Shown here: one piece after another, positions 7,833 through 17,143 of the stretch
Position numbering within the stretch: position 1 is the first letter of the stretch
Layout of the letters: each line of letters begins with the position of its first letter
Source of the DNA: Leucobacter massiliensis
GTDB lineage: Bacteria; Actinomycetota; Actinomycetes; Actinomycetales; Microbacteriaceae
Assembly (NCBI RefSeq): GCF_002982315.1
Contig: NZ_MWZD01000017.1
Location: 310,001 to 374,000 of the forward strand
Reading direction: 5' to 3'
DNA: 64,000 nucleotides
Notes under the pieces: generated by a model
The model's database searches: none
What the model was told of the DNA's origin: nothing
The model's input: the letters and a program-made list of their open reading frames with translations, nothing else
Translations under genes and position numbers: made by a program

Positions 7833-7871
7833 GTTGCGGGGGCAGGATTTGAACCTACGACCTCCGGGTTA
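7833..7871. repeat. Left attachment site: tRNA-fMet 3' fragment
   Basis: This 39-bp copy matches 17069-17107 exactly. On the minus strand it runs from the anticodon loop to the acceptor end of tRNA-fMet. The 5' half of the tRNA is missing here, so it is a non-functional remnant made by integration. Confidence 0.9.
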
Positions 7872-8050: not shown

Positions 8051-9322
8051 ATGAGCAAGACCCTGCACCGCGCGCCCTCTACCCGCCTCGAACCCGGCCA
8101 GCACTCCGTGGATCGCGTCACGCCCGTCTGGAACGACGACCGTGGGGCATGGACGATGAAGTGGAGCGTGCGGCTCAAGGATGGCCGTCTGATCGCCGGA
8201 AAGCGCGCCCAGGGCGCGACGAAGGCGCAGGTGCGGCAGCGCGCTCGCGAGGCCGCCGAGGAACTCCTGAAGACGGGCGGCATGCACGGCGCGTGGAGGG
8301 GCACCTCGGGCCTCGCCGACTACATCGCGCAGGTCTCGATGCCCGAAGTCGAGAAGAACACCAACGCGAACACGCTGGCCCGCTACCGCCTGGCTCTGAA
8401 GCAGCTCGTCGGCGGCTGCGACGACCACAAGCACGAGAACTCGCTCAAGGGCCACAGCATCGCGTCTGGGGCGCGTTTCCGCGTATTGGAGGCATGCTTG
8501 CAGGAGATCGCCGCTCTGCACGGCTCTGAGAGCGCCAGGCAGGCGCGTACGGTGCTCGGCAAGTACGTCGTGCAGCAGCTCATCCGCGAGGGCCTGCTCG
8601 AAAGCAACCCGCTCGCGGGTATGAGCATCGACCTCAAGACGGGGGCCCGTGAGAACACGAACCGCCGGGGCGGCAGCCAGTCGCTCAGCCGCGAGCAGTG
8701 GCTCGCCGTACTTGAGTACCTGCTCGCGCTCGACCCTGAGGATGTTGAGAAGCCGCGTCGCGGCCGTTGGACTCGCGAGGATGCCGTGGCGAAGCGCCGT
8801 GCGACCATCGATCTCGCGCTGTTGCAGGCGACGACGGGGCTGCGTCAGAGCGAGGCGAACCGCATCGACTGGTCGCTCGTCAGTATGACCAAGGACGGCA
8901 AAATGCTGATCTACGTGCCCAAGCACATCGCGAAGAACAAGAAGCCGCGCACTGTGCCGGTGCTCGATCCCCGTGTGGTCGAGCGGCTGAATGAGCGCCG
9001 GGCCGCCGGCGCTCTCGTCATCGGCTCGCCAACCAATCAGACGGTGGTCTGGGATCGTCGGAATTGCTCGGGTGCGACGAGTGCGCTCTACGACGAGGTG
9101 GCGGAGGCTCTGGGCATCGAGATCATGGGCACCGAGGCAGGGCGCTCGCATATCTGGCGCGCGACGCTCAACACGGTGACGGCGGCGCTCGGTGTGCCGG
9201 AGGAGATCAGGTCTGCGAACTTCGGGCATGATGCCGAGACGAACCGGGGCGCGTACCTCGACCACACGAACGCGGACGCGATGTTGGCGGCCTACGCCAA
9301 GCTGCACGACACGCCGAAGTAG
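8051..9322 (+). CDS. int: Tyrosine site-specific integrase
   Basis: A 423-residue phage-type integrase that would recombine the element with the tRNA-fMet gene. The N-terminal part contains an AP2-like arm-binding segment (WTMKWSVRLKDGRLIAGKRA) and a core-binding SAM-like region. The catalytic domain shows Arg265 in TGLRQSEANRIDW, the beta-hairpin lysine region IAKNKKPRTVPV, His367 and Arg370 in SHIWRA, and the nucleophile Tyr402 in GAYLDHT. The ATG at 8051 is chosen because the longer open frame would run through the arm repeats and almost into the att site. The gene begins 180 bases from the left att core and points into the element. Confidence 0.92.
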   Translation: MSKTLHRAPSTRLEPGQHSVDRVTPVWNDDRGAWTMKWSVRLKDGRLIAGKRAQGATKAQVRQRAREAAEELLKTGGMHGAWRGTSGLADYIAQVSMPEVEKNTNANTLARYRLALKQLVGGCDDHKHENSLKGHSIASGARFRVLEACLQEIAALHGSESARQARTVLGKYVVQQLIREGLLESNPLAGMSIDLKTGARENTNRRGGSQSLSREQWLAVLEYLLALDPEDVEKPRRGRWTREDAVAKRRATIDLALLQATTGLRQSEANRIDWSLVSMTKDGKMLIYVPKHIAKNKKPRTVPVLDPRVVERLNERRAAGALVIGSPTNQTVVWDRRNCSGATSALYDEVAEALGIEIMGTEAGRSHIWRATLNTVTAALGVPEEIRSANFGHDAETNRGAYLDHTNADAMLAAYAKLHDTPK

Positions 9323-9526: not shown

Positions 9527-9763
9527 ATGGCCATGAAGACTTCCACCGCGACCGTCGTCGCGCTGACCCCCGCGCGTGTGTCGAGCGATGCCGCCGCGCG
9601 CTACCTCGGTCTTGAGCCTCAGACGCTCACCAACTGGCGGAACCTCGGCAAGGGGCCCCGCTTCACCCGCGACGGCAAGCCGGGCAGCCGGGTCTTCTAC
9701 CGGGTCTCCGACCTTGACGCTTGGCTTGACGAACAAGCCGTGCGGTCGAACTCTGCCGTCTGA
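9527..9763 (+). CDS. xis: Excisionase-like helix-turn-helix protein
   Basis: A 78-residue protein of the MerR/HTH_17 excisionase type. The sequence shows the usual arrangement: SSDAAARYLGLEPQTLTNWR (helix-turn-helix) followed by a wing, GPRFTRDGKPGSRVFYRVSDLDAWL. Proteins of this size next to a tyrosine integrase usually bend attachment-site DNA and drive excision, or repress the element. It is 204 bases downstream of the integrase on the same strand. ATG at 9527 is used; an in-frame ATG at 9533 is possible. Role as Xis is inferred from fold and position. Confidence 0.75.
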   Translation: MAMKTSTATVVALTPARVSSDAAARYLGLEPQTLTNWRNLGKGPRFTRDGKPGSRVFYRVSDLDAWLDEQAVRSNSAV

Positions 9764-9790
9764 CCCCCGCAAGAGCCGTCTCAACAATGA

Positions 9791-9841
9791 GACGACCCTC
9801 GCGGTATCCGGGCGTTGACAGCGCACCGGGCGAGGGTCGTC
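9791..9841. repeat. 11-bp inverted repeat upstream of the rep gene
   Basis: GACGACCCTCG (9791-9801) and CGAGGGTCGTC (9831-9841) are perfect complements with a 29-base loop that can form a second small stem. It ends just before the ribosome binding site (GGAAAG) of the RepB-like gene. It could control rep translation or be part of a rolling-circle double-strand origin. Confidence 0.5.
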
Positions 9842-9852
9842 GGAAAGAATCC

Positions 9853-10878
9853 ATGACCAAGAATACCTCACAGAAGCGGGTCTCGCGCTATCGCGGACGC
9901 CGCCACCGCGCCTACAAGTTCGAGGTGCGCTCTGCCTTCGTGTCGCGTGAGCGGCTGCATGCCGCCCTCCGCGTCTCCGGCACGGTCGAGGAGCACCTGT
10001 TCACCGGCCACTACCGCGACGACACCGAGCGGCATGTGCAGGGTTACCTGCGCACGGCGCGCGGCTCGAAGCTCACCGAGCGCGAGGCTGTAGCCCGCAT
10101 CGCCGCCGGTGGCATCCCTCCCGAGCTGATCCGCGTGGTGCCCTTGGCGGGGCGCAATGCGGTGGAGGCGTTCGCCCACTACCTGACGCACGTCGACGAG
10201 ATGCTGCAAGCCCGGTACCACCGCGAGGAGTTCTTCGCGAGCGATCCCGAGGGCATCTGGGCACGTGTCGATGCCTGGCTCGGGCGCAAGGCGCGTGCCG
10301 ACGAGAAGAGCGACACCGAGGCGCTGGTCGAGCGTCTGCGCCAGCGACTCATGGACGGCGAGATTGCGCTCCACGATGTCCAGCTCGACTACCCGAAGCT
10401 GTGGGCTGCCTATCGGGGCAGGTTCAGCGGCCTTGAGAACGTGCGCGAGAATGCCCGCAAGCTGCGCGAGGAGGCCGAGGAGCTGCGCGAGTATCAGCGC
10501 CGGGAGCAGGCGCGAAAGGCTGCCGCTGACGGGCCCGCTGTGCCCGCCGTTCCTGTCGATGACGAGGCCCGTGAGCATCGCGCCTGTGAGCGTCGCGAGA
10601 CCGAGGATCGCGCGCTGGCCGAGTCGGCTGAGCGGCGCGCTCGTGAGGATCGTGAGCGCGAAGCGCGTGACCGCGAGCACGATGCCCGGATCGACGCGCG
10701 CGTGCGTCAGCTCGACCGCCGCCAGGAGCTGCGGAAGCTGATGGACGCCCGCGAGGTCGAGCTGCGAATGCAGGCAGAGCATGACGGGCTCGACGCCGAA
10801 GCGCTCGAAGACCTGCTGCTCGATGACGAGACCTTGAACCAGTACGACGCCGAGCTGAATGCCCTCGTTCCCATGTAG
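9853..10878 (+). CDS. RepB-like (Rep_2-type) plasmid replication initiator, putative
   Basis: A 341-residue protein. The N-terminal part (residues about 25-135) resembles rolling-circle initiators of the Rep_2/RepB type: a GHYRDDTERHVQGYL stretch followed by the conserved NAVEAFAHYLTHVDEMLQARY segment, which in that family ends the catalytic domain ('YLTH.D.P.K..Y'). The second half is a long, highly charged coiled coil (residues about 195-300, Arg/Glu-rich). The start is the ATG at 9853 with GGAAAG upstream; the longer frame from 9787 runs through the hairpin. If correct, the excised circle could replicate on its own. The HUH metal motif is not clear-cut, so the call is moderate. Confidence 0.5.
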   Translation: MTKNTSQKRVSRYRGRRHRAYKFEVRSAFVSRERLHAALRVSGTVEEHLFTGHYRDDTERHVQGYLRTARGSKLTEREAVARIAAGGIPPELIRVVPLAGRNAVEAFAHYLTHVDEMLQARYHREEFFASDPEGIWARVDAWLGRKARADEKSDTEALVERLRQRLMDGEIALHDVQLDYPKLWAAYRGRFSGLENVRENARKLREEAEELREYQRREQARKAAADGPAVPAVPVDDEAREHRACERRETEDRALAESAERRAREDREREARDREHDARIDARVRQLDRRQELRKLMDAREVELRMQAEHDGLDAEALEDLLLDDETLNQYDAELNALVPM

Positions 10879-10956
10879 ACCCGAGCTGCCCACGAGTGGC
10901 GGCTGCGAGCACCCGACCGGGTGCGAGCTGACGACAACGACGAAGGAAGTACACCG

Positions 10957-11229
10957 ATGAGCGAGATCGACTACGCGGCTCTGGACGCCGCCGACCGTGA
11001 CCAGACGCCGAAGAGTTCGCCGAGGGTGCGGGCGGCGGTGAAGAGCACCGCTGAGCGCGTCGAGGAGGCTGCGGCTGCGCTGGCGAGGCTTGAGGCGCAG
11101 CTCGCCGAGGAGCGCGAGCTTGCCGTGCTGCGCGCCGCCTACGCGGCGCAGCACGGTGCCGAGGCCAAGAAGTCGATGAAGCGCACGGCGCTGATCGACG
11201 CGTTGGCTGAGTCGTTCGGGATCGCGTGA
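10957..11229 (+). CDS. Small coiled-coil protein of unknown function
   Basis: A 90-residue protein, mostly one alpha-helix: residues about 28-60 form an Ala/Glu-rich heptad pattern (AERVEEAAAALARLEAQLAEERELAVLRAAY). A strong ribosome binding site (GAAGGAAG, 10942-10949) precedes the ATG at 10957. It lies between the Rep-like and mob genes on the same strand. I do not recognise a family; a role in replication or as a relaxosome accessory is only suggested by position. Confidence 0.6.
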   Translation: MSEIDYAALDAADRDQTPKSSPRVRAAVKSTAERVEEAAAALARLEAQLAEERELAVLRAAYAAQHGAEAKKSMKRTALIDALAESFGIA

Positions 11230-11256
11230 GCCGATGCCGAACGCCGGGGTTGGGGT

Positions 11257-11397
11257 CAAGGGGCGGGGCTTAGCCCCGGCCCCTTGCCAGCCGTATTTGT
11301 GGGAGGTGAGCGCAGCGAAACCGACCACAAATGCGTTGCTGGCCGGGTCACGGGCGCCTCACTCTGCCAGCAACAGCAGCGGTGAGGTGCCCGTGAC
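11257..11397. other. Candidate origin of transfer (oriT) / mob regulatory region
   Basis: The gap before mobC is dense in inverted repeats: a G/C hairpin at 11257-11286; ATTTGTGG (11295-11302) with CCACAAAT (11325-11332); GTTGCTGG (11335-11342) with CCAGCAAC (11367-11374); and GTCACGGGCGCCTCAC (11347-11362) with its near-perfect complement at 11382-11397. The last two pairs interleave (A-B-A'-B'), so they cannot fold together as simple hairpins. This position, directly upstream of a mobC-mobA pair, is where oriT usually lies. The nick site is not identified. Confidence 0.5.
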
Positions 11398-11436
11398 CGC
11401 ACGGAGTGCGCCGACGACGAGCGAGGAGACGAGACG

Positions 11437-11895
11437 ATGAACGACAGTGAAGAGACGAAGACGACGCGCGAGGAGTTGGTGCACGACGTGCATCTGCGCC
11501 TCACGGAAGACGACATGCGCCTGGTGCGCGGTGTCGCCGAGGCGTTGGGCGTGACGCAGAGCAAGGCGCTGCGGCTGATGCTGCGTCGGCTCGACGGCGG
11601 TGCGGCGGCGGTCGCTGCGGCCCCGGTGCTCGACGATGTGCGCGACGCGCTCGAGCGGTTCGCACGAGCGCACGAGCTGCACGCGGTCGCGCTCGACCGG
11701 GTGGGAGCAAACCTCAACCAGATCGCGCGGCACCTCAACTCTGGGGAGCGTGCACACGATCACGAGGTGATCGCCGTGTTCGATCAGACGCGGCGTGCGC
11801 TGCGCGACACGAGGCTCTACCTGGGCCGCGACCCGGAGAAGATGCTCCGGTGGCTCGGCCTGCACGAGCTGATGATCGAGAGCGAGGCTGCCTGA
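11437..11895 (+). CDS. mobC: MobC-family relaxosome protein
   Basis: A 152-residue mobilization accessory protein. The N-terminal segment (VHLRLTEDDMRLVRGVAEALGV) looks like a ribbon-helix-helix/helical DNA-binding unit, and the C-terminal half holds the MobC signature VGANLNQIARHLNSG at about residues 88-102. MobC proteins help the relaxase melt and nick oriT. The ATG at 11437 follows a GAGGAGACGAG region. The stop codon overlaps the relaxase start (TGATG), so the two are translationally coupled. Confidence 0.8.
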   Translation: MNDSEETKTTREELVHDVHLRLTEDDMRLVRGVAEALGVTQSKALRLMLRRLDGGAAAVAAAPVLDDVRDALERFARAHELHAVALDRVGANLNQIARHLNSGERAHDHEVIAVFDQTRRALRDTRLYLGRDPEKMLRWLGLHELMIESEAA

Positions 11896-13226
11896 TGGCA
11901 TCGAGTGCGATGAGCCCGACCACGAGCACGGGTCGCGGCTGCAACTACATGGTGCGCGGCACCGCGCACGACGGTTCGGGAGAGCCCCGCGCCGTCTACG
12001 TCGGCGGTGTCGGCGGCATCATCCCGGCGGTCGCGCCGGGACAGTTCGCGGCGATCCGCCGCCGGTTCGGGAATGAGGGTGCCAAGCGCCAGGGCATCAT
12101 GGGCTACATCTCGTTCAGCCGCGAGGAGCTTGACCCCGACGACCCCGACGCGGGTCTCAAGGCGCTGCGCATCGGGCAGCGCCTTGTCAACAAGCAGTAC
12201 CCCGGTCACCCTGCCCTGCTCGCGGTGCAGCGCGACGGGGTGGGTGGCCTGTGGCATGTGCACTTCCTCGTGTCGGCGGTCAGCGACCGCGACGCGGTGC
12301 ACATCTACCGGCGCAAGCCCCGCAAGGGCGAGCAGCCTGAGCCCGACGGCCTCATCGAGCAGCAGGATGCCCGCGCCGCCGGGCGTGCGGTCAGCTCCGC
12401 GATGACGAACGCGTGGCGGTTGCAGCACACGGTAGACAGCGTGCTCGCCGACGAGGAGTTCATGCAGTCCATCGGGCTCACGGCCTACGACAACGAGGCG
12501 CTAATGGAAGAGCGCCGCGTCGGCATGGCCGACCGCGCGACCGCTGCCGAGCTTGAGGATCAGCACGCGGGCAACGACTGGCGCGCGCATCTGCGGGCGG
12601 TGGTTGCCGACGCGCAGGCCGAGGCGACGAGCCTGGACGAGTACCGCGATCTGCTCAGCGCTCGCGGCATCGAGCTGAAGACGCGCAAGAGCAAGACGGG
12701 AACCGACTTCGGCGACGGGGTGCCGGTGAACTTCAGCTACCGGCTCACCGACGCGCTCGGCAAGCAGCGCAACGCTCGCGCCGGTGGCCGTGACGGCATC
12801 GGCGACGAGTTGGGATCGGCGGCAACGCTCGCGCGTATCGAGCAAAACATCGCTCCGCAGCCGCAGCCGCAGCCGCAGCCGCAGTCTCTGCCCGCACCGA
12901 CCCCCGCGCTGCAGCAGGCGGCACCGTCGTTCAGCAGTGGGCTCGCGGGACTCCGCCGCCAGCGAGACGAGGAAGAGCACGAGGCGCAGACGGTAGAGCG
13001 CGTGGCGGCATACGAGAGCCCTTCTGAGGCTGTGGAAGCGCCCGAGGTGAGCACGGCCCCGCCGAAGGCGACAAAGGCTGTCAGCGGGCCGCCTGTGAAG
13101 CCTCGGCGCAGGCCCGCGCCGTTCGTGGTCGAGACTGACCGCGAGCGGCTGGCCAGGGAGATGCGCGAGGAACGGCAGCAGCCTCGCCCGCAGACCCCTG
13201 CCGAGCAGTACGGCTTCGGGGAGTGA
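11895..13226 (+). CDS. mobA: MobA-type relaxase
   Basis: A 443-residue relaxase that would nick oriT and pilot the single strand. The catalytic histidine motif is visible as GLWHVHFLVSAV (His121 and His123), preceded by a conserved AVQRDGVGG stretch, a layout typical of MobA/VirD2-like HUH relaxases. A candidate upstream tyrosine lies in the N-terminal 20 residues (RGCNYMV). A Pro-Gln repeat (residues about 320-330) separates the enzymatic part from a basic, disordered C-terminal tail. The ATG at 11895 shares one base with the mobC stop. It is followed by a strong hairpin. Confidence 0.8.
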   Translation: MASSAMSPTTSTGRGCNYMVRGTAHDGSGEPRAVYVGGVGGIIPAVAPGQFAAIRRRFGNEGAKRQGIMGYISFSREELDPDDPDAGLKALRIGQRLVNKQYPGHPALLAVQRDGVGGLWHVHFLVSAVSDRDAVHIYRRKPRKGEQPEPDGLIEQQDARAAGRAVSSAMTNAWRLQHTVDSVLADEEFMQSIGLTAYDNEALMEERRVGMADRATAAELEDQHAGNDWRAHLRAVVADAQAEATSLDEYRDLLSARGIELKTRKSKTGTDFGDGVPVNFSYRLTDALGKQRNARAGGRDGIGDELGSAATLARIEQNIAPQPQPQPQPQSLPAPTPALQQAAPSFSSGLAGLRRQRDEEEHEAQTVERVAAYESPSEAVEAPEVSTAPPKATKAVSGPPVKPRRRPAPFVVETDRERLAREMREERQQPRPQTPAEQYGFGE

Positions 13227-13274
13227 CCCCCCTTCTGAGGGCAACGGTGCGCAGCACCGGCGGCAGCCAGAAAG

Positions 13275-13311
13275 ATTTGAGGGCTCAGGATGACCTCCTG
13301 AGCCCTCAAAT
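13275..13311. terminator. Bidirectional terminator between mobA and the envelope operon
   Basis: A perfect 16-bp stem (13275-13290 with 13296-13311) with a 5-base loop, AT-rich at the outer ends, lies between convergent genes and can serve both strands. Confidence 0.85.
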
Positions 13312-13323
13312 ATCTGATCGGTG

Positions 13324-14160
13324 TCAGCCGTAGCAGATGGGCTTGTCGGGCGGGCATCCGCCGCCACTCTGGCCGGGAGGGGGCGCGATCTGCGTGCCGC
13401 CGCCGTTGCTGCCGCCGCCTCCGCCGGGGTTGCCCCCGCCGTCGCCGCCCCAGTTGCCGCTGTTGCCGGAGTTGCCGCTGTCCCAGCTCTGCTGCTCGGC
13501 GGCCTGGCGAACGGCCTCCTCGGCAGCCGCCTGCTCGGCGGCCTGGCGCGCGGCTTCTGCTGCTGCGGCTTCCTCGGCGGCCTTCTTCTCCGCGGCGAGG
13601 CGAGCGGCCTCATCGGCCTGGAAGAGGGCGAAGTCCTCGGTGAGCGCGGTGGACGCGGTGTCCAGGGCCTTGGCCGCGTCGGTCACGGCCTTCGCCTGAG
13701 CAGTGGCCTGCTCGGCGTCGTCGCGGGTCTCGCAGGCTTCGGCGAGCGCCTCCTCGGCCTCGGCGAGCCCCGCCTTGGCGTCGGTGACGTCCTTGACGAA
13801 GTCCGCGCCGCTCTGGCGAGCGGGCACGGCCTTGACCTCGGGCTTGTCGCCCTCGGCCTTCTGGGCCTTCACCTCTTCGACGGCCTTGCGGTCGGCGTAG
13901 GCGGTGCTGGTGCCTCCGGCTGGTAGCTCGGTGTTCTCCACGGCGGTCAGCGCATCGGTGGCAGATGCAGCCGCCTCCTGGGCAGCGTTGTGAGCCGTCT
14001 CGGCGTTCTCGAGCGCGACGTCGCACAGGCGCGCGGTCTCGGCCTTGTAGGTGTTCACGCTGACAACGGCGGCGATCCCGCCACCGGCGACGAGCGCCGC
14101 TGCGATGAGCGGCACCCAGAAGCGCGTGCGTTTGCGCCTCGGGGCCGCATCGGGCGTCAC
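13324..14160 (-). CDS. Membrane-anchored coiled-coil protein with Gly-rich tail, unknown function
   Basis: A 278-residue protein. After a basic start (RRKRTR) there is one membrane helix (FWVPLIAAALVAGGGIAAVVSV, residues about 14-35), so the rest is probably outside. Residues about 40-220 are Ala/Glu-rich helices likely to form a long coiled coil, ending in repeated AAEEAAAAEAARQAAEQ. The tail is Gly/Asn-rich (DGGGNPGGGGGSNGGG) and ends in CPPDKPICYG, two cysteines four residues from each other. It overlaps the upstream two-TM gene by 4 bases (ATGA). It may span the wall as a tether or spacer. No family is recognised; it is the last gene of the element's envelope operon. Confidence 0.65.
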   Translation of the reverse strand: MTPDAAPRRKRTRFWVPLIAAALVAGGGIAAVVSVNTYKAETARLCDVALENAETAHNAAQEAAASATDALTAVENTELPAGGTSTAYADRKAVEEVKAQKAEGDKPEVKAVPARQSGADFVKDVTDAKAGLAEAEEALAEACETRDDAEQATAQAKAVTDAAKALDTASTALTEDFALFQADEAARLAAEKKAAEEAAAAEAARQAAEQAAAEEAVRQAAEQQSWDSGNSGNSGNWGGDGGGNPGGGGGSNGGGTQIAPPPGQSGGGCPPDKPICYG

Positions 14161-14960
14161 TTCTTGAGCCTCACGGTCACTGGTACGTTCATCGCTGCGC
14201 GGGTCTTGTTGCCCTGGTCGATCATCGTGCCGATCATCGCGCCCTGCATGCTCGCGTTGATGACGCCGTTGACCTGGGCCACCCGGGTGGCCCGCTGCTG
14301 CTCAGCGATCTGGGCTGCGTGCATGTCCAGAATCGCCTGGTGGCGTTGATCTTCGATGAGCGCGTTCACGGCCTCTTGCACGGTGGATGCGCGGCCATCG
14401 TGAACGATGTGCCAGCACGCGCCCACGTCCACGGAGTTGCGGTACTTCTCCGGGAACCATCCGTTGTAGTTCTCGCGGTATTCTTTGCGGGCTGCGGCGA
14501 GCTGTGCGTCGATGGGGCCAACCTCGGGTGCGGCAAGCTGAGCGATCTGCTGCGCGGCAGCCTGGTTCGCGGCTTCGATCTGCGCGTTCTTCGCGGGCAC
14601 TCGCCCATTGCGGACGGCGACGAGCACACCCGCCAGAATCAAGGCCACCGGCAGAGGGGTGAGGAAGAGCGCGGCCACACCGACAGGCGGCTGGGCGCTG
14701 CTGTCGCTCTGGTAGGCGTTGCTCCATGCCGACATCGCGCCGAAGAAGATCATCGTGACGATGATCGTCAGTGCGATGGTGCCGATCAGTACCCAGAGCC
14801 AGTACATTCCGGCGCGCCACTTCGAGATGTACGGGGTGTAGAGATGCGCGTGACGTTGGTAGGCCGCTTCCTTCTGCTGTTGCAGGCTCTCGAAGCGCTG
14901 CAACAGGTGGAATAGGCCAGCGATTCGCTGTTCGAGTTGTGCTCGTGGCTGGGTGTTCAT
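14157..14960 (-). CDS. Two-TM membrane protein, unknown function
   Basis: A 267-residue protein. An N-terminal amphipathic helix (residues about 8-40) precedes two membrane helices, WLWVLIGTIALTIIVTMIFFG (about 55-75) and VGVAALFLTPLPVALILAGVLVAV (about 92-116). The remaining 150 residues are probably cytoplasmic, with helices rich in Ala/Gln and the segment WFPEKYRNSVDVGACWHIVHDGRA. The ribosome binding site AAGGAAC precedes the ATG at 14960. It is coupled to the coiled-coil gene downstream. No known family; position suggests an envelope complex with its neighbours. Confidence 0.65.
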   Translation of the reverse strand: MNTQPRAQLEQRIAGLFHLLQRFESLQQQKEAAYQRHAHLYTPYISKWRAGMYWLWVLIGTIALTIIVTMIFFGAMSAWSNAYQSDSSAQPPVGVAALFLTPLPVALILAGVLVAVRNGRVPAKNAQIEAANQAAAQQIAQLAAPEVGPIDAQLAAARKEYRENYNGWFPEKYRNSVDVGACWHIVHDGRASTVQEAVNALIEDQRHQAILDMHAAQIAEQQRATRVAQVNGVINASMQGAMIGTMIDQGNKTRAAMNVPVTVRLKK

Positions 14961-14981
14961 GTCTTCTGTTCCTTTCGCGAG

Positions 14982-15833
14982 CTACTGGCGCACCAGCATG
15001 ACGGCGGTCTGGCCGTTCCAAATGCGGTCTTGGTCAGGCAGGTCTGTGCCTGCGTAGTAATCGGGCAGCGCGATGGGGGTGCCTGCCGGGTAGAACGTGC
15101 CGAACGGTGCGCCCGGTGCGATGTAGGCGATGCCGCCGTCGCCGTTCAGGTCGCCTCGATCAACGAGTTCCTTGGTGGCGCCGCTGTCGTAGGTGGCCGT
15201 CGGCAGGGCGATGGTCACGCACCCGTTCTGATCATTGCTCTCGGCGGTAGGGCACCAGTGACCGTTGGCGTCGCCGCCCACTGTTTCCTCAGTAGCGGGC
15301 GCTTGATCTTCGGCGATCACTGCGCCTGAGTCTTCATCCCAGGTGTAGGTAGTCGTGGTGAGGATCGGGGGCGTGTTCGCGCCTCCTGGCACTGCGAAGG
15401 TGAGTGCTATGGCGCTGTCGTCGATGCGCTCCGTGACAGCGTCAGGTGTTCTGGCCTGGGCGCGTTCGGTTACGGTCGCTGCCGGGATGAACTGGCCCCG
15501 GTTGAAGAACATCACGGGCGTGATCTCGAACGCGGTGCAGCATTCCGCAGGGCGCAGCACGATGTAGGACAGCTCGGCGCACTCGTCGTATCCGCTCACA
15601 TCGCTGTACTCGCCTGCGGTATCCCACGCACGGGTGGTCTCGACCTTGTTCGCCCACTTCTCAAGCGCTTCGAGACCGGTGAGTCCTGAGCATTCCTTTG
15701 GTGCCGGGGCTTCTGCCTCGGTGGGTGCGCTGGGCTCGGGCTCGCTCGGGGTCGAGCAGCCGGTGAGGGCGATCAGCAGCGCTACCCCCACCGCTGCCTT
15801 CATCGTGATGGACTTCTTCGTCAAGGCGCGCAT
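14982..15833 (-). CDS. LppP/LprE-type lipoprotein
   Basis: A 283-residue exported lipoprotein. The signal peptide (MRALTKKSITMKAAVGVALLIALTGC) ends in the lipobox LTGC with Cys26; a Pro/Glu-rich linker follows. The middle part, YDECAELSYIVL...VMFFNRGQFI...TYTWDE, matches the pattern of the LppP/LprE lipoprotein family of actinobacteria. The C-terminal portion contains extra cysteines (CCTAF, HWCPTAESNDQNGC) likely to form disulfides. It is the first gene of the minus-strand envelope operon, 21 bases upstream of the two-TM gene. Function in the family is unclear; on a mobile element, surface exclusion or host-fitness roles are possible. Confidence 0.7.
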   Translation of the reverse strand: MRALTKKSITMKAAVGVALLIALTGCSTPSEPEPSAPTEAEAPAPKECSGLTGLEALEKWANKVETTRAWDTAGEYSDVSGYDECAELSYIVLRPAECCTAFEITPVMFFNRGQFIPAATVTERAQARTPDAVTERIDDSAIALTFAVPGGANTPPILTTTTYTWDEDSGAVIAEDQAPATEETVGGDANGHWCPTAESNDQNGCVTIALPTATYDSGATKELVDRGDLNGDGGIAYIAPGAPFGTFYPAGTPIALPDYYAGTDLPDQDRIWNGQTAVMLVRQ

Positions 15834-15988
15834 GACGGGGCCTCATTTCCTGTCGTAGTGACGTGATCGCCGACAGGTCGGGCCGTTAGGGGGCTGAGGA
15901 CACCGGCACTGGCGAGGTGCGCGGGCGGTTGTTCCCGTCTCTGCCGAGGCGGAACGAGACCGCCTACATATCCAACCTTATCGCGTCA

Positions 15989-16006
15989 AGACCATTCAAA
16001 TAGTCT
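15989..16006. promoter_or_regulatory. Candidate operator near the XRE regulator start
   Basis: AGACCATTCAAATAGTCT is a near-palindrome (AGAC...GTCT ends, 14 of 18 positions symmetric) in an AT-rich patch 30 bases upstream of the XRE gene and within the divergent intergenic region to the lipoprotein operon. Binding by the XRE protein is inferred. Confidence 0.35.
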
Positions 16007-16036
16007 CGTATTCGAGCGGAAAACGCGATTGCGTTG

Positions 16037-16315
16037 ATGGATATGCCCGCCGAGCAAGACCCCGAGATCGAGGCCGAAGAGATCCTGAAGCAGATCTTCG
16101 CGTCGAATCTGCGGGCGTACCGTCGGGAGCGCGGCATCTCGCAGCTGGCTCTCGCGAACGAGCTGGGTCTGAGTCCGGCCTACTACGGCTCCATCGAGCG
16201 GGGCCAGCGGAACCTTCAGTTCTCGACGGTCGGCAGGATCGCTGACAGCATCGGCGTGCACCCGTTCGACCTGCTGACCGGTCACGAGCCGCCGCCCGAG
16301 GACGACGACGAATAG
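16037..16315 (+). CDS. XRE-family helix-turn-helix regulator
   Basis: A 92-residue repressor-like protein. The DNA-binding domain spans residues about 20-78: FASNLRAYRRERGISQLALANELGLSPAYYGSIERGQRNLQFSTVGRIADSIGV is the classical XRE five-helix pattern (shown here only as a region). The tail is acidic (PPPEDDDE). Start codons TTG 16034, ATG 16037 and ATG 16043 are all possible; ATG 16037 is used. It is divergent from the envelope operon and likely controls that operon or itself. Confidence 0.8.
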   Translation: MDMPAEQDPEIEAEEILKQIFASNLRAYRRERGISQLALANELGLSPAYYGSIERGQRNLQFSTVGRIADSIGVHPFDLLTGHEPPPEDDDE

Positions 16316-16409
16316 GCGCACTGCCGGAGCGGCCAATATCCAGTCGCAGGAACGTGCCACGTACCACTTTCGCGGAACTTCAGGCGATGGCCAGAAGATC
16401 GAGATTCGA

Positions 16410-16797
16410 GCAAAAGGGTGTACGCACAGCAGGCCCCACCGAAACCCGAGCAATCGACCGGGCGAGCAGTTTCCCTGGTTTACCAACGTTCTGCGCACGC
16501 GCACGCACGCGAGTTAGTCGCGTGACCGCCGCAGCCATGTACCAAAGTGCGTACACCCTTTTGCCTCTCGCGCTCCAAAAGGGTGTACGCGCTCTCGGCA
16601 GCGCCGCGACCTCGTTCTGCCGCGTGACTCCGCCACTTCTGACCGCTGATCCGCCGCAGAACCTGCGTACACCCTTTTGCGTTACCCAGTAGCAAAAGGG
16701 TGTACGCACGCTAGGGCAGCCCTGCGGCCCGGTTAGCCGCGTGATTCTGCGGTTCTCCGCCGCCGAACTGCCCCGATTCCTGCGTACACCCTTTTGC
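16410..16797. repeat. Array of six 17-bp repeats in alternating orientation (three inverted-repeat units)
   Basis: The motif GCAAAAGGGTGTACGCA occurs at 16410-16426 (+), 16548-16564 (-), 16576-16590 (+, 15 bp), 16664-16680 (-), 16692-16708 (+) and 16781-16797 (-). Orientation alternates strictly. This makes three units, each an inverted repeat enclosing 70-120 bp, and units are separated by about 11 bp. The enclosed sequences are related: each contains a version of GTTAGCCGCGTGATTCTGCGG near the middle. No convincing gene fills 16316-17068 apart from this array, the right arm sites and a terminator. Candidate roles are a replication origin or partition site for the excised element, a structured RNA array, or nested small mobile repeats. 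Confidence 0.8.
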
Positions 16798-16959
16798 GGA
16801 GCTCTCAATGCCCGACCCGGCGCAGCACCGGCGGCACGACGGTGCCCTGCGCCCGCGAAGCGGGGGCAGGGCACATGTCACAGACCCGTGCCGGGCCCGC
16901 GCCGACTTCTCAGCTCGCGCCGTTGCGGCTGGATCGCCGATCTTCGCTGAGACTACCGC

Positions 16960-17068: not shown

Positions 17069-17107
17069 GTTGCGGGGGCAGGATTTGAACCTACGACCTC
17101 CGGGTTA
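17069..17107. repeat. Right attachment site within tRNA-fMet
   Basis: Second copy of the 39-bp direct repeat, identical to 7833-7871. Here it forms the 3' half of the intact tRNA-fMet gene. Confidence 0.9.
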
Positions 17108-17143
17108 TGAGCCCGGCGAGCTACCGAACTGCTCCACCCCGCG
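17070..17143 (-). tRNA. Initiator tRNA-fMet (anticodon CAU)
   Basis: The 74-nt minus-strand sequence folds as a full cloverleaf and is close to bacterial initiator tRNA: it begins CGCGGGGTGGAGCAG and ends GCCCCCGCAA, giving the C1-A72 mismatch that marks initiators. The anticodon stem has the three G-C pairs (GGG-CTCATAA-CCC) that bind the ribosomal P site. CCA is not encoded. A TACTGT -10-like hexamer (17156-17161) lies 12 bases upstream. The gene is the integration target of the element on its left. Confidence 0.95.

Follow-up and report, generated by a model that had tools for sequence, protein, structure and literature searches.

The analysed stretch of Leucobacter massiliensis DNA (64,000 nucleotides, hereafter the window) contains an integrative mobilizable element of about 9.2 kb bounded by a 39-bp direct repeat. 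The left att repeat (7833..7871, +) is identical to the right one (17069..17107, +), which constitutes the 3' part of a tRNA-Met gene (17069-17143, -). The genes of the element are arranged in the order of a tyrosine integrase (8051..9322, +), whose Phage_integrase match lies below the Pfam cut-off, an HTH_17 excisionase-like protein (9527..9763, +), a Rep-like protein of 341 amino acids (9853..10878, +), a small ORF, a MobC-like protein (11437..11895, +), a MobA/VirD2-like relaxase (11892..13226, +), three cargo genes and an XRE (HTH_3) protein (16037..16315, +), and they are followed by an array of repeats. The leader directly 5' of rep (9757..9852, +) includes a 12-bp stem (9791-9802 / 9830-9841) and ends at a likely ribosome-binding site of rep. 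Between the XRE stop codon and the array there are 94 bp, and another 271 bp separate the array from the tRNA-Met gene with the right att site. The array is far from rep in the integrated element and about 2 kb from it in the circle, where the two are separated by the integrase and excisionase genes on one side and by the relaxase and cargo genes on the other. No copies of the arms were found near rep, even with up to four mismatches allowed.

When up to three mismatches were accepted, GCAAAAGGGTGTACGCA matched six times in the window, in the orientation + - + - + - and within 16410-16797, exactly as the first-pass annotation of this DNA had described. Five of these arms are exact, and the one at 16575 has two mismatches at its ends. 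Shuffled sequences contained 0.02 such matches on average, and in 100 shuffles six were never reached, which confirms that the array is real and far beyond chance. The arms delimit three units with a total length of 388 bp, separated by spacers of 10 bp (units 1 and 2) and 11 bp (units 2 and 3). Unit 1 (16410-16564, 155 bp) lies between arm 1 (16410..16426, +) on the left and arm 2 (16548..16564, -) on the right, unit 2 (16575-16680, 106 bp) between the mismatched arm 3 (16575..16591, +) and arm 4 (16664..16680, -), and unit 3 (16692-16797, 106 bp) between arm 5 (16692..16708, +) and arm 6 (16781..16797, -). The central motif of unit 2, CCGCGTGACTCCGCCA (16620..16635, +), and the central interrupted palindrome of unit 3, CCGCGTGATTCTGCGG (16737..16752, +), are both placed 29 bp from the 15-bp arm core on each side; the central stem of unit 2 is poorly kept in the window copy (3 of 5 pairs). 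A core common to all units had been proposed, and GCCGCGTGA is indeed present in units 2 and 3, but unit 1 holds only the near match GTCGCGTGA, which is not kept in four other copies of this unit. The pairing of GGGCAG with CTGCCC was found again in unit 3. Unit 1 includes an alternating purine-pyrimidine tract, GCGCACGCGCACGCACGCG (16493..16511, +).

A 15-mer scan of GTDB contigs (257 billion bases) returned at least 119 stretches. Among the 119 listed, 116 have a single copy, as chance predicts in a collection of this size, and three have two or more exact copies, namely those of a Microbacterium metagenome-assembled genome (MAG; L014), Leucobacter musarum (L070) and Actinomyces minihominis (L109). 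In the own genome (3.14 Mb, 24 contigs), all six copies of the 14-mer arm core are located within the array. A dispersed repeat with scattered single copies, which the first-pass annotation had named as the outcome that would contradict its view, was rejected, as six copies lie in one place and 116 of the 119 stretches listed have a single copy. Searching the genus with Rep (54 genomes) gave matches in four genomes and five loci, i.e., the window element, a sister element in the same genome (G000:C5), L. musarum (G253), G786 and G802. A search of the family (398 genomes) with the Rep of the sister element added G051, and the Microbacterium MAG also has a Rep match. All seven Rep loci found are accompanied by an array in their genome. 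The sister element (L215, approximately 10100-16700) adjoins a tRNA-Val gene and is characterized by a divergent Rep, a different relaxase and an array of its own.

The Rep family is rare in the sample of the order, where a profile search of 337 genomes gave matches in the own genome only. The search of 396 genomes of the order with the array DNA returned the own genome and four short matches. One of these, in a genome of the same family (G668:C4), is a lone stretch of 30 bp near 241095 (L217 6096-6125) that matches the unit 3 core at 93%, and no arms can be recognised around it. In A. minihominis (L109 1545-1828), a two-unit array lies beside integrase remains and one of its arms is damaged by an insertion; no Rep match was found in this genome, and the array looks like a relic. 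Plasmid and phage records gave no match to the array, and plasmid records none to either Rep class. Viral contigs contained no Rep relative and no class B end sequence, and the viral stretches with the 14-mer had one copy each (69/69). No array was present within about 1.5 kb on each side of 13 of 15 integrase loci, i.e., those of more distant elements with related integrases after exclusion of the known ones. The array and its Rep were also not found in the titles and abstract beginnings of the literature searched.

Two classes of array can be distinguished in the seven elements. Class A comprises the window element, L. musarum, G786 and the Microbacterium MAG, with arms reading CAAAAGGGTGTACGC in the order + - + - + -, and class B comprises the sister element, G051 and G802, with arms reading AAATGACGGTACA in the order + - + - - +. 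The start-to-start distances of the arms are identical in 4/4 complete class A arrays (138/27/89/28/89), and those of class B are 128/25-26/74/13/23-24, with the order kept in 3/3. The strict alternation noted previously is therefore kept in class A but not in class B, and the order of the arms, expected to be conserved in relatives, is conserved within each class and differs between the classes. Across pairs of the four class A arrays, identity amounts to 96.5% in the arms, 82% in the interior of unit 2, 87% in that of unit 3, and 72% and 64% in the spacers. Position-wise identities of the unit 1 interior and the 3' flank are spoilt by indels; unit 1 was aligned instead, and its five copies have a mean column identity of 87%. 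With up to five substitutions allowed, the class A core is centred 29/29 bp between the 15-bp arms in 8/8 units tested. The two classes share a core, which reads CCGCGTGATTCTGCGG in class A units 2 and 3 and CCGCGGAATCATGCGG in class B unit 2, with the middle six bases inverted; this inversion of the central-motif loop makes a nick fixed to one strand less likely at this position. The interiors of units 2 and 3 are alike between the classes in most of the comparisons: the score was reached by 0-1 of 100 shuffles, with 10 of 12 comparisons of unit 3 with unit 2 at 0 and the other two at 0 or 1. The interiors of unit 1 were not clearly alike in the shuffle comparison; class B unit 1 also holds a similar alternating purine-pyrimidine tract. 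Protein coding by the array was rejected, since substitutions are even over the three phases (9/9/12 and 12/21/18); the comparison with G786 (41/40/38) is blurred by an indel pair. Just upstream of the class B array, a second cluster of short TGTACCCAGT-like repeats is located (L215 14927-15034), which is also visible in G051 and G802.

In G802, AAATGACGATACA replaces AAATGACGGTACA in each of the six arms, which thus share one G to A change, and the rest of its array differs from that of the sister element at 39 of 199 sites. The same change in six arms could hardly have arisen from independent neutral changes, but would be expected from a change in the binder or from conversion of one arm by another. 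In this assembly, which has 6% contamination, Rep and the array are on different contigs.

To determine which component of the elements the arm type goes with, each module was compared with each element by tblastn, with absence called at E 1e-3. Arm type matches Rep class in 7/7 elements, the identity to the Rep of the window being 65-100% in the four class A elements and 29-31% in the three of class B. G051 had been chosen for its class B Rep, so that class B arms were expected before the result was seen, and six were found. The match is based on seven elements and two Rep classes, which is essentially one switch of arm type. The other modules are distributed differently. Elements with the tRNA-Met-type integrase have either class A arms (window element; Microbacterium MAG, 95%) or class B arms (G051, 95%). 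The tRNA-Val-type integrase, with identities given to that of the sister element, occurs with class A arms in L. musarum (80%) and G786 (78%); in the sister element itself and in G802 (77%) it is found together with class B arms. The window-type excisionase is likewise found with both, i.e., in the MAG (class A, 89%) and in G051 (class B, 86%), so that integrase and excisionase genes have been swapped between elements with the arms unchanged. The relaxases of G786 (class A) and G802 (class B) share 90% identity over residues 2-241, but that of G786 is 34% identical to the relaxase of the window element. MobC and the small ORF after rep are present in three class A elements and in no class B element; both are absent from G786, and as this absence alone separates them from the arms, they are weaker witnesses. 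Since integrase and excisionase, or relaxase and cargo, stand between the array and rep in the circle, simple linkage is not an easy explanation of the match.

The Rep has no match in Pfam, NCBIfam or solved structures by sequence comparison, and no SF3 helicase match was found in it. Residues 13-118 are predicted to adopt an HUH/OBD-type fold. In the comparison of this region with structures (VIA-align), the best 22 of 50 rows listed are replication initiators, the top rows including those of circovirus (10.1), nanovirus (9.8), geminivirus (9.7) and pMV158 RepB (8.9), and the next row after the initiators scores 7.7. The underlying model is moderate in quality (mean pLDDT 71.9, pTM 0.33), Foldseek returned only two PDB matches for it at E <= 0.001, and the model of the class B Rep, folded without an alignment, was useless (pLDDT 38). 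YLxH (motif III) is present in 16/16 rows of alignment A1 and 17/17 rows of alignment A5, and motif II reads H-x-Q in 16/16 rows of A1 and 16/17 rows of A5, the one other row being gapped there. H-U-H is therefore absent from motif II, as its second His is Gln in Rep; the H-U-Q form of this motif occurs in CRESS Reps. Pfam Rep_OBD (PF01719) gave no match at E <= 1 in the own genome, and the control matched in Lactococcus lactis. Most sites at which the Reps of the sister element and G051 agree and that of G802 differs (Rep genes of L216, L240 and L215) lie after residue 150 of 228, and the region past residue 150 may possibly be the place where the reading of the arms changed.

At the level of sequence, the array, its conserved geometry, the arm-Rep match in 7/7 elements, the concerted arm change in one element and the Rep motifs are firmly established, and together they point to a probable function. 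An array that follows an HUH Rep and combines fixed geometry with concerted arms is best explained as a Rep binding locus, in the way that iterons serve the Reps of geminiviruses and nanovirids (PMC10653810), and the arm spelling, which always matches Rep across the seven elements, suggests that the array is probably recognised by Rep for copying. It is therefore probable, with a fair margin of doubt, that the array is the Rep-recognition (iteron) locus and the likely replication origin of the excised circle, which would be copied in the rolling-circle mode. After excision of the element as a circle, the HUH-type Rep would bind the six arms as inverted pairs around the central motif, and this binding would bend or open the DNA. 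Rep may then nick the origin in or near the array, and rolling-circle replication would follow. If arms and Rep change together in sequence, sister elements would be expected to ignore each other's arrays. This agrees in part with the function guessed from the sequence at the outset, of which replication or binding by a Rep-like protein is the best reading of the comparative data, but the suggested link to XRE was not supported. The description of the array as a cis site that is carried by the element and is distinct from direct-repeat iteron arrays, CRISPRs and parS sites was also supported.

Rep could also bind the array and nick elsewhere. The nick site would then be the hairpin 5' of rep, and the array would be accessory, serving copy control, Rep titration or incompatibility; we regard this arrangement as rather unlikely, though worth keeping in mind. 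Rolling-circle plasmids are known that combine conserved nick regions with divergent bind sites, and the rep leader is 87% identical over columns in 7/7 elements of both classes, even though their Reps are only about 30% identical. Moreover, two pairs of its 12-bp stem have a two-sided change. However, the end of the leader is the apparent ribosome-binding site of rep, so that the leader may simply control rep translation, and, being common to both classes, it cannot underlie the arm-Rep match. A quite different role, in which the array is a single-strand origin and hairpins formed by the inverted arms on the displaced strand start lagging-strand synthesis, is very unlikely. Single-strand origins are known in integrative elements, for example in ICEBs1 (PMC4595007), and each unit is predicted to be foldable through its arms. 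Nevertheless, the arm pairing is broken in 4/12 class A units and the interiors have no meaningful covariation, and a folding role leaves unexplained both the same base change in all six arms and the fact that the arms follow Rep. The broken arm pairing also weighs against a structured RNA encoded by each unit, which had been considered before and is now most improbable. The long arms give strong predicted hairpins, and in unit 1 of L. musarum the same change, a compensatory one, affects both arms (A to G, T to C); yet two-sided change was seen in only 1/26 pairs (9 sequences), the covariation term of RNAalifold was -0.06 kcal/mol, Rfam gave only tRNA above the gathering score, and the two arm types have little common sequence.

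The neighbouring genes offer two further candidates, both barely credible in view of the module comparison. An operator array for XRE or for the excisionase would agree with the XRE gene 94 bp upstream in the window and with the usual operator length of 17 bp. This neighbourhood, which the first-pass annotation had described correctly for the window, is not fixed in relatives: XRE relatives occur only in the MAG (66%) and G786 (35%), where identities refer to the XRE protein of the window, and none was found by tblastn (E 1e-3) in L. musarum, the sister element, G051 and G802, i.e., in four of the six other elements. The XRE gene thus adjoins the array in some elements only, the other array neighbours vary as well, and the window-type excisionase accompanies both arm types. 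Recombination sites, either arm-type sites of the integrase or a shufflon-like invertible array, are suggested by alternating inverted repeats that adjoin an integrase gene or an att site. Against them stand integrases that are 77-80% identical and yet occur with both arm types, the presence of one arm type with unrelated integrases, and the order and orientation of units, which are the same in 4/4 class A arrays.

For the array as a Rep-recognition locus, the closest parallels include the origins of CRESS-DNA viruses, whose Reps are the best structural matches of the predicted Rep domain. The origins of nanovirids and geminiviruses resemble the array in having Rep-specific short repeats that vary with Rep between related replicons, and those of nanovirids have iterons on both sides of a stem-loop, some of them inverted (PMC10653810). 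The layout of iterons around a stem-loop is present in the array, with the centred core described above, but the 5-pair central stem is complete in only 5/9 class A units. The central TGATTC of the array recalls the geminivirus nonanucleotide TAAGATTCC, given for two genera in the same paper, and this is a lead only; TATTAC, the end of the CRESS nonanucleotide, occurs on neither strand of the array. The repeats of CRESS-virus origins are bound by the cognate Rep only, and the same may apply to the array, where arm type corresponds to Rep class in 7/7 elements. The differences are that the array belongs to a bacterial integrative element, that its Rep has no SF3 helicase match, and that arms of 13-17 bp are arranged in three units over 388 bp. 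It is possible, although more doubtful than not, that the three symmetrical units (arm, central TGATTC motif and inverted arm) are a bacterial chromosomal-island relative of CRESS-virus origins, each unit being a potential Rep-assembled origin, that the helicase-less HUQ/YLxH Reps form a family outside Pfam and NCBIfam, and that the joint change of Rep and arms leads to compatibility groups. The window element and its sister, which belong to different classes in the same genome, fit such groups as one case. Integrative elements are regarded as the ancestors of CRESS-DNA viruses (PMC6668415), and the same paper mentions an actinobacterial cluster of integrated HUH elements.

Rolling-circle plasmids of the pMV158/pE194 type and the YLxH supergroup of integrative plasmids (pCRESS4-8) differ in that the Rep described here has no PF01719 match and has H-U-Q as motif II. 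The pMV158 bind locus consists of direct repeats (DDR), as the title of entry 8amu indicates, in contrast to the inverted repeats spread over 388 bp in the array. SGI1, another mobilizable island, also encodes a rep of its own and has 17-bp repeats in its origin (PMC7433901), but these are direct iterons that lie just 3' of rep; moreover, its Rep is unrelated and a DnaA box is present. Iteron oriV regions of theta plasmids and SGI1 have direct repeats, unlike the orders + - + - + - or + - + - - + found here. Repeats of alternating orientation are also a feature of BIMEs and REP elements (PMC2817692), but REPs are dispersed with many copies per genome, unlike the six copies in one place. If the proposed function is correct, the elements represent a natural experiment on the joint change of specificity of a rolling-circle initiator and its binding sites, with two arm types and an intermediate-looking one-base variant, the Reps of the second type and of the variant being 80% identical. 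Moreover, a Rep family without a database model, together with a testable origin, would be added to integrative elements.

The DNA that follows the array in the window (16798-16920) resembles the terminator and the 3' end of a tRNA-Val-type integrase gene. In L. musarum and G786, such a gene lies at the corresponding position, the similarity being about 90% over array and flank, and the window looks as if its element had lost a tRNA-Val-type integrase and taken a tRNA-Met one.
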